In this document: positions 3,592 to 56,519 of the stretch, piece by piece
Position numbering within the stretch: the stretch's first letter is position 1
How the letters are laid out: each line of letters starts with the position of its first letter
Source of the DNA: Venatoribacter cucullus
GTDB lineage: Bacteria; Pseudomonadota; Gammaproteobacteria; Pseudomonadales; Oceanobacteraceae
Direction of reading: 5' to 3'
NCBI RefSeq assembly: GCF_016132445.1
Contig: NZ_CP046056.1
Coordinates: forward strand, 992,001-1,056,000
DNA length: 64,000 bases
The notes under the pieces: model-generated
The model's database searches: none
Told to the model about the DNA's origin: nothing
Seen by the model: the letters and a program-made list of their open reading frames with translations, nothing else
Program-made: the position numbers and the translations under genes

Positions 3592-4629
3592 TTAGTACTC
3601 CAGTTTCCAGCGCAGGGTTTCACCCGCACGCAGCGGCACGATAACGTCTTGCCCGAACGGCATTTCCGCCGGCACCTGCCAGGGTTGTTTCACCAGCGTG
3701 ATCTCGTCGCTGTTGCGTGGCAGGCCGTAGAAATCCGGGCCGTGGAAGCTGGCAAAGCCTTCCAGTTGGTCCAGCGCGCCTAAGTCTTCAAAAATTTCGG
3801 CGTACAGTTCAATAGCACCGTAAGCGGTGTAGCAGCCGGCACAGCCACAGGCGTTTTCTTTGGCGCCTTTGGCATGCGGGGCACTGTCGGTACCAAGGAA
3901 GAATTTGGCATTACCGCTGACCACCACATCCTGCAGGGCTTGCTGGTGCAGGTTGCGTTTCAGAATCGGCAGGCAGTAGAAGTGCGGTTTAATACCGCCA
4001 ACCAGCATGTGGTTACGGTTGTAGGCCAGATGCTGCACGGTAATGGTGGCGCCCACGTTCGGCCCCTGGCTTTTTACAAAATCGGCGGCGTCTTTGGTGG
4101 TGATGTGTTCAACCACCACTTTCAGGGTCGGGTGGCGGCTGACCAGCGGTGCCAGAATGGTGTCGAGGAACTCTTTTTCGCGGTCGAAAATATCCACATG
4201 GTTGTGGGTGACTTCGCCGTGTACCAGTAATGGCATGCCATGTTCAGCCAGGGCGGAGGCAATATGATCCAGCTTGCCCAGGTCGGTAACGCCAGAATGC
4301 GAGTTGGTGGTGGCACCGGCCGGGTAGAGTTTGACCGCTACAATATGGCCGGCGTCTTTGGCCTCGGCGATCATGTCCGGGGTGGTGTGGTCGGTTAAAT
4401 ACAGCACCATCAGCGGGTCAAAGTGAATGCCCTGCGGCACGCGCGATAAAATGCGGCTGCGGTATTCCAGCGCTTGTTCGGCATTCATGACCGGGGGTTG
4501 CAGGTTCGGCATGATGATGGCGCGTTTCATTACCCGGGCAGTGGCGGGCACGGTGTGTTGCAATAATGCGCCATCGCGCAGATGCAGGTGCCAGTCATCA
4601 GGGCGGGTGATGGTTATGCGTTCGGTCAT
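3592..4629 (-). CDS. pyrC: Dihydroorotase (class II, homodimeric)
   Basis: PyrC catalyses the reversible cyclisation of carbamoyl-aspartate to dihydroorotate, the third step of de novo pyrimidine synthesis. The 345-residue protein has the N-terminal zinc ligands in DDWHLHLRD (11-19), the K in [14 protein letters not shown] that is carbamylated to bridge the two metals, the histidine-bearing LLVHGEV and VEHITT segments, and GTDSAPH with the catalytic Asp. Length and motifs match the E. coli/Pseudomonas type. It heads a probable pyrC-rnt-yacL unit and is divergent from motY, with about 185 bp between the two starts. Confidence 0.97.
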
Positions 4630-4814
4630 AGCGGCAACCTTAAGCTGGAAGCTGTTGGTGTGGGTTACAAGACGGGTTTCGTTCAGAATGCCGCATTGTA
4701 CCCAAAGCCCGGCCGTTGCGCTTTGTTTTAAGGGCAGTTTTTACCGCTCAATTTTTTCGTCCGGCCGCCGATAACCCGTCCATACCCTTACTGTTTGTGG
4801 TAACAGGAATTCTG

Positions 4815-5774
4815 ATGCTTAGTAACCAAACTCTGTCCAAGTCTGTTGTCGAGGCGCTGCGGTTCTGTGCTGGCCGCTGTTTGTTAGCGCTGGCCATGAC
4901 TGGGGCTGCCGTTGCTGAGGCGGATCTGCACTATGGCAGCTCGGCGGAAGATACCCGCTGGCAGGTGAGTGGCTCGATCTTTGAGTGCCGGTTTGAACAG
5001 CCCATTCCCGGCTATGGCCGGGCTGTGTTCTACCATGAGGCCGGCGAAGATGTGGAATTCCGCCTGGAAACCCTGCGTAATTTAATGGCCTATACGCCTG
5101 CGGAAGTGACTATTTTGCCGCCGCCGTGGCAGCCGTCGGCGAAATCGGAGCATCTTGGCCAGGTGAAGGTGGTGGATGCAACACCGAACTTAAGTTTGGA
5201 TGCCCGCCGTACCAATCAGTTTTTACACGCACTGCTGGAAGGCAAGTGGCCGGCGATTTCCCATACCGCTTATTACGATAAGGGCCGGCAGGTGCGGGTG
5301 CATGTATCGGCCGTGGCCTTTAATGATTTTTACCCGGTATATCTGCAATGCGTCGACCAGCTGTTACCCATGAATTTTCGCCAGGTGAACCGCCTGAAAG
5401 TGCAGTTTGGCAGCGGTGAAGAGAAAATTGACGCTGAGGATATGGCCATTCTGGATCAGATTATTCATTACATTCAGAACGACCCCAGAGTGTTTGCGGT
5501 GTATCTGGATGGTCATGCCGATAGCATGGGGCGTCGTTATGATAACCGGCAAGTGTCCAAAGCGCGGGTAGAAGATGTGGAGCGCTATTTTATTACCAGG
5601 GGCATTAACCCGGATATGTTAACCACCCGTTTCCATGGCGACCGTTATCCGGTGGCCAATAACCGCACCGCCGCTGGCCGGGCAGAAAACCGCCGGGTAA
5701 CCATAAGACTGGAGCAGCGGGATGATATGCCGGTGCCGGATAATCTGATTTTCAGGCCGTCGGCGGGGGGGTAG
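4815..5774 (+). CDS. motY: Flagellar stator-ring protein MotY
   Basis: MotY forms the periplasmic T-ring that holds stator units around polar flagellar motors in Vibrio and Pseudomonas. I start at 4815 (MLSNQTLSK) because AGGAA sits 7 bases upstream; the frame is open further, to 4716. The product is about 319 residues. An Ala-rich signal peptide ends near AVAEA. The N-terminal domain (LHYGSSAEDTRWQ...FECRFEQPIPGYGRAVFYHEAGE) is the MotY-specific region, and the C-terminal OmpA-like peptidoglycan-binding domain carries YLDGHADSMG and RTAAGRAENRRVTI. Divergence from pyrC matches the Pseudomonas motY locus and implies a polar flagellum. Confidence 0.92.
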   Translation: MLSNQTLSKSVVEALRFCAGRCLLALAMTGAAVAEADLHYGSSAEDTRWQVSGSIFECRFEQPIPGYGRAVFYHEAGEDVEFRLETLRNLMAYTPAEVTILPPPWQPSAKSEHLGQVKVVDATPNLSLDARRTNQFLHALLEGKWPAISHTAYYDKGRQVRVHVSAVAFNDFYPVYLQCVDQLLPMNFRQVNRLKVQFGSGEEKIDAEDMAILDQIIHYIQNDPRVFAVYLDGHADSMGRRYDNRQVSKARVEDVERYFITRGINPDMLTTRFHGDRYPVANNRTAAGRAENRRVTIRLEQRDDMPVPDNLIFRPSAGG

Positions 5775-7852: not shown

Positions 7853-7875
7853 GCCAGCCTGGCGGCTGGCTTTTT
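7853..7875 (+). terminator. Terminator-like hairpin at edge of the 200-bp repeat
   Basis: GCCAGCC (7853-7859) pairs with GGCTGGC (7864-7870), followed by TTTTT (7871-7875), which has the form of an intrinsic terminator reading rightward. No rightward gene precedes it. The equivalent position of the second repeat copy also carries hairpins plus TTTTT, so this end of the repeat is structurally conserved though its sequence differs. Confidence 0.5.
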
Positions 7876-8070
7876 GCGGCCTTCGGCCGCTGGTATTGCA
7901 AGGGGAGGTATCCCCTTGCGAACCCCTCTGGCCCGCGTCCCAGCTGATCCTCGTTTACCAAAGCCAATAACGCATACGCGGCCAAGGGGCATCCATGCCC
8001 CTACCCGCTCGTTTGGAATCATCCAAACGATGCTACTGGCTTTGGCAAACTTCGGGCTGGCCCGAATGGG
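7871..8070 (+). repeat. 200-bp structured intergenic repeat, copy A
   Basis: This 200-bp sequence recurs in reverse orientation at 55089-55288 without gaps and with about 14 differences counted by eye. It folds on paper into consecutive hairpins: GCGGCC/GGCCGC (7876-7890), CAAGGGGA/TCCCCTTG (7899-7918), then a junction closed by CCAAAGCCAAT...GCAT (7958-7975) and ATGC...ACTGGCTTTGG (8030-8045) that encloses AGGGGCAT/ATGCCCCT (7985-8002) and CGTTTGGA/TCCAAACG (8010-8029), and finally TTCGGG/CCCGAA (8051-8066). The differences between copies fall mainly in loops and joints. The frame through it changes many residues between copies, arguing against a protein. Confidence 0.85.
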
Positions 8071-8111
8071 CTGTTGCAACCCCCAGTGACGCGAAGGTGT
8101 TGGATGCGTCC

Positions 8112-53945: not shown

Positions 53946-54638
53946 ATGAATCAGCAGTTAACCTTATCTGTCGCCATTCGCGACGATGCCCGTTTTGCCA
54001 ACTATTATGCTGGCCCTAACGAGCAGATCGTGCAGGCCCTGCAACAGCAATGGACGGTGCGCGGCGAGCCCTACATTTATTTATGGGGCAGTCCTGGCAG
54101 CGGTTGCAGCCATTTACTGCAGGCCTCCTGTCACTATGCCGAAGGGCTGGGGCATCAGAGTGTTTACCTGCCGCTGGATGAGCTGGCCGATTATGGCCCG
54201 GCGGTGCTGGACGGTATGGACCAGTTGCCGTTGGTGGCACTCGACCATCTGCAGGCCGTGGCTGGCCGTTCGGACTGGGAAGAAGCGTTATTTCACCTGT
54301 TTAACCGCATCCGTGACCGGCAAAGTCATTTGCTGATTGCGGCTGGCCAGCCGCCGGCGGCGCTGGGTATTCAGCTGCCGGATTTACTCTCACGACTGAA
54401 CTGGGGGGTAAGCTACGCGGTGCAGGAGCTGGATGACAACGACAAAATACTGGCGTTGTTGTTGCGCGCGCGCCGCCGTGGGTTGAACCTCAGCGACGAC
54501 GTGGCGCGCTTTATTCTTACCCGCGGCCCGCGGGATATGCAGGGGTTGTTCGATTTGCTCGAACGGCTGGATGCGGCGTCGTTGGCGGCGCAGCGGAAGC
54601 TGACCATTCCTTTTGTTAAAGCAGAGCTACAGTGGTGA
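53946..54638 (+). CDS. hda: DnaA regulatory inactivator Hda
   Basis: Hda binds the sliding clamp and promotes hydrolysis of DnaA-bound ATP, preventing over-initiation. The 230-residue protein has the N-terminal clamp-binding sequence QQLTLSV (pentapeptide QL-x-L-x), a Walker A-like GSPGSGCSHLLQA in which the usual Lys is replaced by Cys (Hda proteins commonly have Arg here), and the AAA+ lid with RGPRDMQGLFDLLERLD. Hda normally works with ADP and without a canonical P-loop Lys, so the change is tolerable. The stop is followed directly by the hairpin block. Confidence 0.93.
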   Translation: MNQQLTLSVAIRDDARFANYYAGPNEQIVQALQQQWTVRGEPYIYLWGSPGSGCSHLLQASCHYAEGLGHQSVYLPLDELADYGPAVLDGMDQLPLVALDHLQAVAGRSDWEEALFHLFNRIRDRQSHLLIAAGQPPAALGIQLPDLLSRLNWGVSYAVQELDDNDKILALLLRARRRGLNLSDDVARFILTRGPRDMQGLFDLLERLDAASLAAQRKLTIPFVKAELQW

Positions 54639-55088
54639 CACTGCCAGCCTGCCGGGCTGGTTTAGCTGCCACTGCGTGGCAGCTATTGCGGGGCTCCGCC
54701 CCCGCGCCCCGATTGCGAGGAACTTATCCTCGCGCTCCAGCTTGGTTGCCTGCCATCCATGGCGGCAACCCTTCGGGCCATCATTTTGTGATGTCACAAA
54801 TTGCTCCTGCAATTTGTTGCGCTGTATAGCACGTATTTCCTCATTCACCGTCATTGCCTGCGGCCACGGATCGTAAGGCGCGTCGTGCGCCACGATCCTC
54901 GCCCGGTCCATCCGGGCGGGCCTGTCAATGACGGTTCATTTTGGCGTGCTATAGGCGCGGATAAAACCGCAGCGGCTACGCCGGTATGGCTTTATTGAGC
55001 GCGCTACGCGCGCAAAACCAAAACCCAAATTTGATTATTTCCGGCCGCAGGCCGCATTAGCTTTTCAAGTTGCTGCTGTTTTGCCCGG

Positions 55089-55288
55089 CCCATTCGTTCC
55101 AGCCCGAAGTTTGGCAAAGCCAATAGCATCGTTTGGATGACTCCAAACGAGTGGCCAGGGGCATGGATGCCCCTTGGCCGCGTATGCTCAATTGGCTTTG
55201 GTAAACAAGGATCAGCTGGGACGCGGGCCTTAGGGGTTCGCAAGGGGATACCTCCCCTTGCAATACCAGCGGCCGAAGGCCGCAAAAA
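55089..55288 (-). repeat. 200-bp structured intergenic repeat, copy B
   Basis: This is the reverse-oriented partner of 7871-8070, the same length with about 14 substitutions. Relative to copy A, one A-C mismatch in the long-range stem becomes A-T here, the AGGGGCAT/ATGCCCCT stem is extended by GGCC pairs, and the last hairpin (TTCGGG) is weaker. The conserved stems carry no substitutions. Confidence 0.85.
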
Positions 55289-55308
55289 GCCGTCACGCAG
55301 TGACGGCT
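55284..55308 (-). terminator. Terminator-type hairpin after aspC
   Basis: On the minus strand AGCCGTCAC (55308-55300) pairs with GTGACGGCT (55296-55288) and is followed by TTTTT (overlapping 55288-55284). It lies 30 bases past the aspC stop and is well placed to end its transcript. It is also the inner hairpin of the right end of the hairpin block. Confidence 0.75.
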
Positions 55309-55337
55309 CAACCAGCCTGTAAGGCTGGCCTACAGGC

Positions 55338-56519
55338 TCAGCTCAGCGCTTTTTTGATGCGCGCCAGCGCGTCTTCCAGCACTTCCATGCTGGTCGCGAA
55401 CGACAACCGCATATAACCCGGCGTGCCGAACGCCGAACCCGGCACCAGTGCCACGCCAGCTTCCAGCAGCAGTTTTTCGGCGAAGTCGATGTCGTTGTCG
55501 ATACCAGCCTTGGCCATCGCTTCTTTCACGTTCGGGTAAGCGTAGAACGCACCGTCAGCTGCAATGCAGCTGAAGCCCGGAATTTCATTCAGGGTTTTCA
55601 CCACATAGTCGTGGCGTTCTTTAAACGCTTTCACCATTGGCGTAACGCAATCACGGCCGCCGTTCAGGGCTGCTTCCGCGGCAATCTGAGAGATGGAGGT
55701 CGGGTTAGAGGTGCTCTGTGACTGCACTTTGGTCATGGCGCTGATCAGTTTCACCGGGCCAGCTGCGTAGCCGATGCGCCAGCCGGTCATGCTGTAGGCT
55801 TTGGAGACACCGTTCAGCACGATGGTGCGGTCGTACAGATCCGGGCACACGGTCAGAATGTTTTCGAAACCGAAATCCGCCCACCAGATGTATTCGTACA
55901 TATCATCGGTGGCCACCAGTACGTGCGGGTGCTTGCGCAGCACGTCGCCCAGGGCTTTCAGCTCGTCGGCGGTGTAGGCCACGCCGGACGGGTTGGATGG
56001 GCTGTTCAGTACCACGATTTTGGTTTTCGGGGTAATGGCGGCATCCAGCTGGGCGGCGGTAATTTTGAAGCGGGTGCTTTCATCGGTATTCAGAATCACC
56101 GGTACGCCGCCGGCCACTACCACCATATCGGGGTAAGACACCCAGTAGGGCGCCGGAATAATGACCTCATCGCCCGGGTTGATAAAGGCCAGGCTCAGGT
56201 TAAAGAAGCTCTGCTTGCCACCGCACGACACCAGAATCTGATTCGGCTCGTAGCTTAAGCCGTTGTCATTTTTCAGCTTATTGATAATGGCTTTTTTCAG
56301 GCCAGGGGTGCCATCCACGGCGGTGTACTTGGTGAATCCTTTATTAATGGCTTCAATAGCGGCCTGTTTGATGTGCTCGGGGGTGTCGAAATCCGGCTCG
56401 CCGGCGCCCAGGCCAATAATGTCTTTGCCGGCTGCTTTCAGTTCGGCAGCCCGTTTGGTCACTGCGAGGGTAGGGGAAGGCTTGATCTGTTGCACGCGAT
56501 CAGACAGTTGCAGGTCCAA
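55338..56519 (-). CDS. Aspartate aminotransferase (class I, subgroup Ib)
   Basis: This 393-residue pyridoxal-phosphate enzyme interconverts aspartate and oxaloacetate with glutamate/2-oxoglutarate; subgroup Ib members often also act on prephenate or aromatic substrates. Motifs are LGAGEPDFDTPEHI, VLNSPSNPSGVAY, the catalytic Lys in LNGVSKAYSMTGWRIGYAAG, and MRLSFATSMEVLEDAL at the end. The start is probably TTG at 56519 (L-D-L-Q-L-S-D-R-V), where relatives start M-x-L-Q-L-S-D-R-V; GAGGAT is 6 bases upstream. No in-frame ATG lies nearby. A long frame continuing to 56987 overlaps uvrB and is not part of the protein. Confidence 0.93.
   Translation of the reverse strand: MDLQLSDRVQQIKPSPTLAVTKRAAELKAAGKDIIGLGAGEPDFDTPEHIKQAAIEAINKGFTKYTAVDGTPGLKKAIINKLKNDNGLSYEPNQILVSCGGKQSFFNLSLAFINPGDEVIIPAPYWVSYPDMVVVAGGVPVILNTDESTRFKITAAQLDAAITPKTKIVVLNSPSNPSGVAYTADELKALGDVLRKHPHVLVATDDMYEYIWWADFGFENILTVCPDLYDRTIVLNGVSKAYSMTGWRIGYAAGPVKLISAMTKVQSQSTSNPTSISQIAAEAALNGGRDCVTPMVKAFKERHDYVVKTLNEIPGFSCIAADGAFYAYPNVKEAMAKAGIDNDIDFAEKLLLEAGVALVPGSAFGTPGYMRLSFATSMEVLEDALARIKKALS

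Follow-up and report, generated by a model that had tools for sequence, protein, structure and literature searches.

The convergent genes hda (53946-54638, plus strand) and aspC (55341-56450, minus strand), both identified by Pfam, face each other across a 685-bp block (54644-55328) of the Venatoribacter cucullus genome (NZ_CP046056.1). Coordinates refer to the window, the 64,000-nt stretch that was analysed (positions 992,001 to 1,056,000 of the contig). An earlier note on this DNA had described the gap as tiled by hairpins, and their layout and coordinates were recovered as first described. The ends (54644-54684 and 55288-55328), taken there for inverted copies, match at 33 of 41 bases after reverse complementing, and the inverted arms reach 59 nt at 75% identity in a repeat search of the block; the nested stems 54825-54953, 54847-54935, and 54868-54917 reappear in computed folds. 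Folded as plus-strand RNA, the block gives -376.4 kcal/mol, where dinucleotide shuffles give -264.7 +/- 7.0 (z -15.9); z is -16.9 against such shuffles for minus-strand RNA and -14.7 for DNA. None of the 20 shuffles folded as well as the real block, on either strand; the order in the 685 bp exceeds chance.

The outermost left hairpin, CCAGCC..GGCTGG (54644-54660), seen in the sequence and present as an inverted copy at the other end, is followed by a second hairpin, AGCTGCCAC-TGC-GTGGCAGCT (54664-54684; sequence and folds), and by a GCGGGGC hairpin beside the left unit (54688-54705), which the 14-copy alignment places in other copies as well. The left structured unit (54715-54970, minus strand), of type M3 in the BLAST unit census given below, has its 5' end at the centre and its 3' end outward; it includes a 3' hairpin (54715-54733) and is broken up by a nested insert of ~73 bp (~54744-54816, minus strand) with two GGA-loop hairpins, GCAGGAGC and CATGGATG. 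The insert is unique to the window copy, being absent from 13 of 13 other aligned copies; hairpins of its kind are arranged in tandem in congeners. Such arrays, which look CsrB-like, were seen close to terminators at four congener loci; their period is 72-75 bp, and they consist of two GGA-loop hairpins, one with AUGGAU and the other with GCAGGAGC or GCCGGGAGC.

The centre (54971-55083), delimited by alignment of copies, contains an GGCTACGCC arm, a GCGCGC hairpin (54999-55013), an A-rich tract (55014-55037), and an GGCCGCAGGCC arm (55041-55054). The right structured unit (55084-55262, plus strand), placed by the census and by the covariance model R1, is of type I: a three-way junction with a 3' hairpin (55240-55261). 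A loop survey locates its CATGGATG hairpin loop, of the AYGGAY type, at 55161-55170 (plus strand). Outside this unit lie an GCGGCCGAAGGCCGC hairpin (55269-55283; folds), the right hairpin AGCCGTCAC-GCA-GTGACGGCT (55288-55308; motif scan), and the outermost right hairpin CCAGCC..GGCTGG (55312-55328; inverted-repeat comparison). The hairpin at 55288-55308 resembles a terminator when read inward on the minus strand, where T5 follows, and its 22-mer motif is found at 24 places in the genome with up to three mismatches.

A search of the single-contig genome (2,827,114 bp) returned 147 repeat pieces at ~30 places; ~31 genome stretches were examined and 14 copies were aligned. The block is non-coding and recurs at these ~30 places, rather than being found once and conserved only as coding sequence in relatives. 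Structured units of ~180 nt number 49 in the 2.83-Mb genome, all intergenic; 40 form 20 twins and nine are single (~29 scattered copies). Each unit follows one plan, in which a long closing stem and then a second stem are followed by two hairpins and finally by an GCAAGGGG..CCCCTTGC hairpin. Twin order is constant: the minus unit comes first and the plus unit second, both facing outward from an A-rich centre. The three unit types (I, n = 20; II, n = 15; M3, n = 14) have a common fold, with stems that differ by compensatory changes. By make-up, ten twins are M3/I, four M3/II, and six I/II, with no same-type pair among the 20. Against random pairing, the unlikeness of twin halves has P 0.0006 in V. 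cucullus; four other genomes give P 0.015, 0.07, 0.27, and 0.31. These values are too sharp, as the copies have common descent and do not count as independent events; a tendency toward unlike partners is only suggestive. The aligned copies are modular, with whole hairpins swapped and terminal modules varying from copy to copy; the central arms occur in either order relative to types I and II, so that reassortment has taken place.

The A-rich centres at four loci contain simple tandem tracts, for example (CCAAAAA)n or (GGCTTTT)n; the length of the central tract is very variable between copies, possibly through slippage, and could serve as a strain marker. The genome is reduced (2.83 Mb, where eight congeners have 3.9-4.4 Mb), yet the repeat is amplified in it. 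The window also holds a single, untwinned type I unit (7897-8075, minus strand; census, R1, and a match to the Rfam family RF01731 at E 2e-4), which a GCCAGCC..GGCTGG hairpin with T5 adjoins (together 7853-8075, minus strand). It lies between tandem minus-strand genes, reads in their direction, and may be a 5' leader of the gene that follows; the six single units found between tandem genes all have this sense orientation. REP-like TGTAGGAGCGGGC..GCCCGCGA repeats, similar to Pseudomonas REPs, adjoin single units at loci L038 (~4600-5400) and L049. Exact 18-mer core scans gave three chance-level matches in genome contigs and none in viral contigs, and plasmid and phage searches for the element gave no match.

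A real and conserved RNA structure of the units is well supported. The RNAalifold consensus of 25 type I and II units has 54 pairs, 21 of them changed on both sides, and 98.4% of cells pair in the MAFFT alignment; covariation is 0.360 against 0.143 +/- 0.008 for shuffled and at most 0.107 for slid alignments, much of it being the I/II difference and hence few independent events. R1, built from types I and II with M3 left out, recovers 14 of 14 M3 units (E 1e-14 to 1e-20). It matches the left unit of the window copy at 54795-54961 (minus strand, E 1.4e-16) and the right unit at 199.7 bits (E 9e-44), the sequence of the right unit being itself part of the model.

When stems are read outward, exceptions to pairing are G.T in 24 and A.C in four column events (p 2e-4), or 17 and two with poor columns dropped; unpaired columns are without bias (C>T 15, G>A 16). 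Six sets of relatives give 33 G.T and 18 A.C (p 0.049), weaker than in V. cucullus, and events in related copies depend on one another. The hairpin loops of the 49 units contain 64 GGA on the outward strand and three on the opposite one; over the 20 whole twins the counts by strand are 88 and 11. Loop GGA amounts to 1.41 per unit against 0.54 in composition shuffles. Usually, though, only a single loop of the pair is a good GGA loop, and two of the 49 units are without any, which counts against CsrA-binding units. The G.U/A.C asymmetry and the GGA loops suggest to us that selection acts on RNA, or on one strand at the least; as both favour the outward strand, we consider RNA more probable than an element working solely as DNA. 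No ordinary sigma-70 promoter was found in the 685-bp block.

An Rfam search with the window copy alone gave no match; the relation to the orphan family RF01731 (TwoAYGGAY; clan CL00106), the only Rfam relative of the units, emerged via covariance-model homologues. Run over 391 genomes of the order, R1 finds full-length homologues in another genus of the family and in two genomes of other families, G145 and G380 (E 1e-5 to 5e-12), and a weak match in one congener. Their stems are quite different, while the loops CATGGATG and CAGGGATG recur. One homologue from the related genus passes the RF01731 gathering score (43.6 against 43). The top three matches to RF01731 in the whole V. cucullus genome fall on units of this element and are correctly oriented (E 8e-5 to 6e-4), with scores below the gathering cut-off (best 39.8 against 43 bits); R1 in return matches RF01731 loci of another genome at E 1.7e-5. 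Two adjacent hairpins within a closing stem are present in the 25-unit consensus structure, as in RF01731. The two loops are not both AYGGAY, and usually one canonical AYGGAY loop is kept: AUGGAU occurs once in type I, type II carries AGGAU/AGGAC or none, and M3 has one AUGGA. The V. cucullus units further differ from RF01731 in having an additional conserved 3' segment, with a GGGG..AAGGGG hairpin, and outer hairpins. Five unit homologues at four loci of G380 are apparently single, with no twin within 1.5 kb.

RF01731 matched 23 of 369 Gammaproteobacteria searched, several with at least seven copies. When 40 RF01731 loci were re-read, two units were present in 18, as 17 outward twins and one inward; the loci with outward twins belong to other families. 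Outward twins and dispersal are thus not peculiar to V. cucullus. In one genus (g299), similarity between loci often extends over the ~600-bp element alone, and at some orthologous sites the halves are not the same. The main texts naming the family, supplements aside, contain no mention that we found of a twin or dispersed nature. The loci suggest that RF01731 is often one half of a paired, spreading element.

The earlier note had proposed a mobile-element body or a large structured RNA, and something of each survives: the block is a copy of a dispersed, transposase-free repeat with RNA-like covarying halves, and a classical non-autonomous transposon is not supported. The possibility that the element is a DNA-level mobile element of MITE or BIME kind, its hairpins being single-strand transposase substrates or palindrome-corrected and RNA playing no part, must be weighed here; we regard it as unlikely. 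The copies are dispersed, modular, and lineage-specific, the ends are inverted, both strands fold equally, and template-switch palindrome correction could yield two-sided changes without selection. Against this, the covariance model connects units across families, and neither the G.T/A.C asymmetry nor one-strand GGA loops are expected of strand-symmetric DNA. As in MITEs, the element is short, non-coding, and inverted at its ends, with transposase absent; unlike MITEs, it has no fixed ends, and its structure is kept across families by covariation. The note had seen no target-site duplication, and none is recognisable at the one site compared with eight congeners, where the whole gap is replaced. 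REP and BIME sequences with their RAYTs are similar in being extragenic palindromes that are dispersed, mosaic and inverted in arrangement, and often located at gene 3' ends, but the element here is far larger and has a conserved three-way junction. A Y1_Tnp (PF01797) search of the V. cucullus genome gave no match, its controls being positive; the absence of a transposase reported for the block extends in this respect to the genome, it counts against a DNA-level element, and an origin by REP/RAYT is rejected on this ground.

The gene context raises a further alternative, that the element is a bidirectional terminator or 3'-end stabiliser between convergent genes, replacing the normal terminator, with the ending or protection of both mRNAs as its main job. 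The gap between hda and aspC measures 67-186 bp in eight congeners and contains a short A-stem-T terminator; in V. cucullus the element occupies the gap and this terminator is gone, so that the element takes its place and is not cleanly inserted beside it. Of the V. cucullus twins, 13 lie in convergent gaps, seven in tandem gaps, and none in divergent gaps, as judged from crude ORF calls with the window copy set by hand as convergent; the 51 gene pairs of the window comprise 10 convergent, 31 tandem, and 10 divergent. Many outer hairpins end in T5, and in part of the copies hairpins such as GCCGTCAC-TGC-GTGACGGC+T5 resemble inward terminators. A terminator, however, requires ~40 bp, against 685 here; the T-run is missing at some ends; and the conserved part is the inner unit, with an outward strand bias that is antisense to the nearest gene. 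Termination as the main job is considered improbable.

A link to CsrA is proposed from the loops. RF01731 has been put forward as CsrA-binding by others (PMC4333381). Loops such as GGUACAGGAUGUACC and GCAUGGAUGC were compared with the CsrA SELEX consensus RUACARGGAUGU (PMC7652899), to which GGUACAGGAUGUACC (type II) is a close match. SELEX hairpins are mostly short-stemmed and the unit hairpins long, which counts against a CsrA reading. The genome has one csrA gene (PF02599), its reading frame intact, and loop GGA on the RNA strand is above chance, as expected of CsrA-binding RNAs. The GGA loops are probably bound by CsrA. Two ordinary sRNA genes of CsrB or RsmX/Y/Z type are a very improbable account of the block: arrays of GGA-loop hairpins (also in CsrC) and the clan in common with RF01731 speak for it, but CsrB, RsmX, RsmY, and RsmZ are without a gathering-score match in the window (RsmY has only a chance-level match, minus strand, E 1.1), and 49 dispersed units, with neither promoter nor terminator evident at their ends, are unlike one or few dedicated single-locus genes that have both.

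We read the block as a copy of a lineage-amplified dispersed element with two outward TwoAYGGAY-like RNAs, probably CsrA-binding, and give this reading a probability of about 0.6. The analysis shows the repeat nature, the twin geometry, the conserved secondary structure, the relation to RF01731, and the amplification in the lineage; transcription and mobility of the element we infer. In the proposed mechanism the units would act as RNA, read outward, and the GC-rich hairpins would cap the element, partly working as inward terminators. Terminators of this orientation in some copies would shut out flanking transcripts, a point against the RNA reading. The GGA-bearing loops would bind the sole CsrA, and transcripts carrying units would either sequester it or come under its control. 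Copies may be found at gene 3' ends because they do little harm there or have a useful 3'-UTR or terminator function. Twin units would have to differ in sequence, because equal units would make a ~180-bp palindrome, presumably unstable as DNA and prone to mis-folding as RNA.

More tentatively, TwoAYGGAY may commonly be half of a bipartite selfish element that multiplies without its own transposase, in which two structurally equal, sequence-different CsrA-binding RNAs stand back to back; dozens of CsrA sites would be spread over gene 3' ends, with copy number tuning a global regulator. We think this possible, though doubtful. If the main reading is right, TwoAYGGAY, a family described yet unexplained, would gain an architecture of outward twins with unlike partners, a dispersed and lineage-amplified behaviour in the genome, and a testable function. 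The repeat would then carry sites for a global RNA regulator, joining selfish DNA to the Csr/Rsm network, and would serve as a natural experiment on the absence of matching partners within twins.
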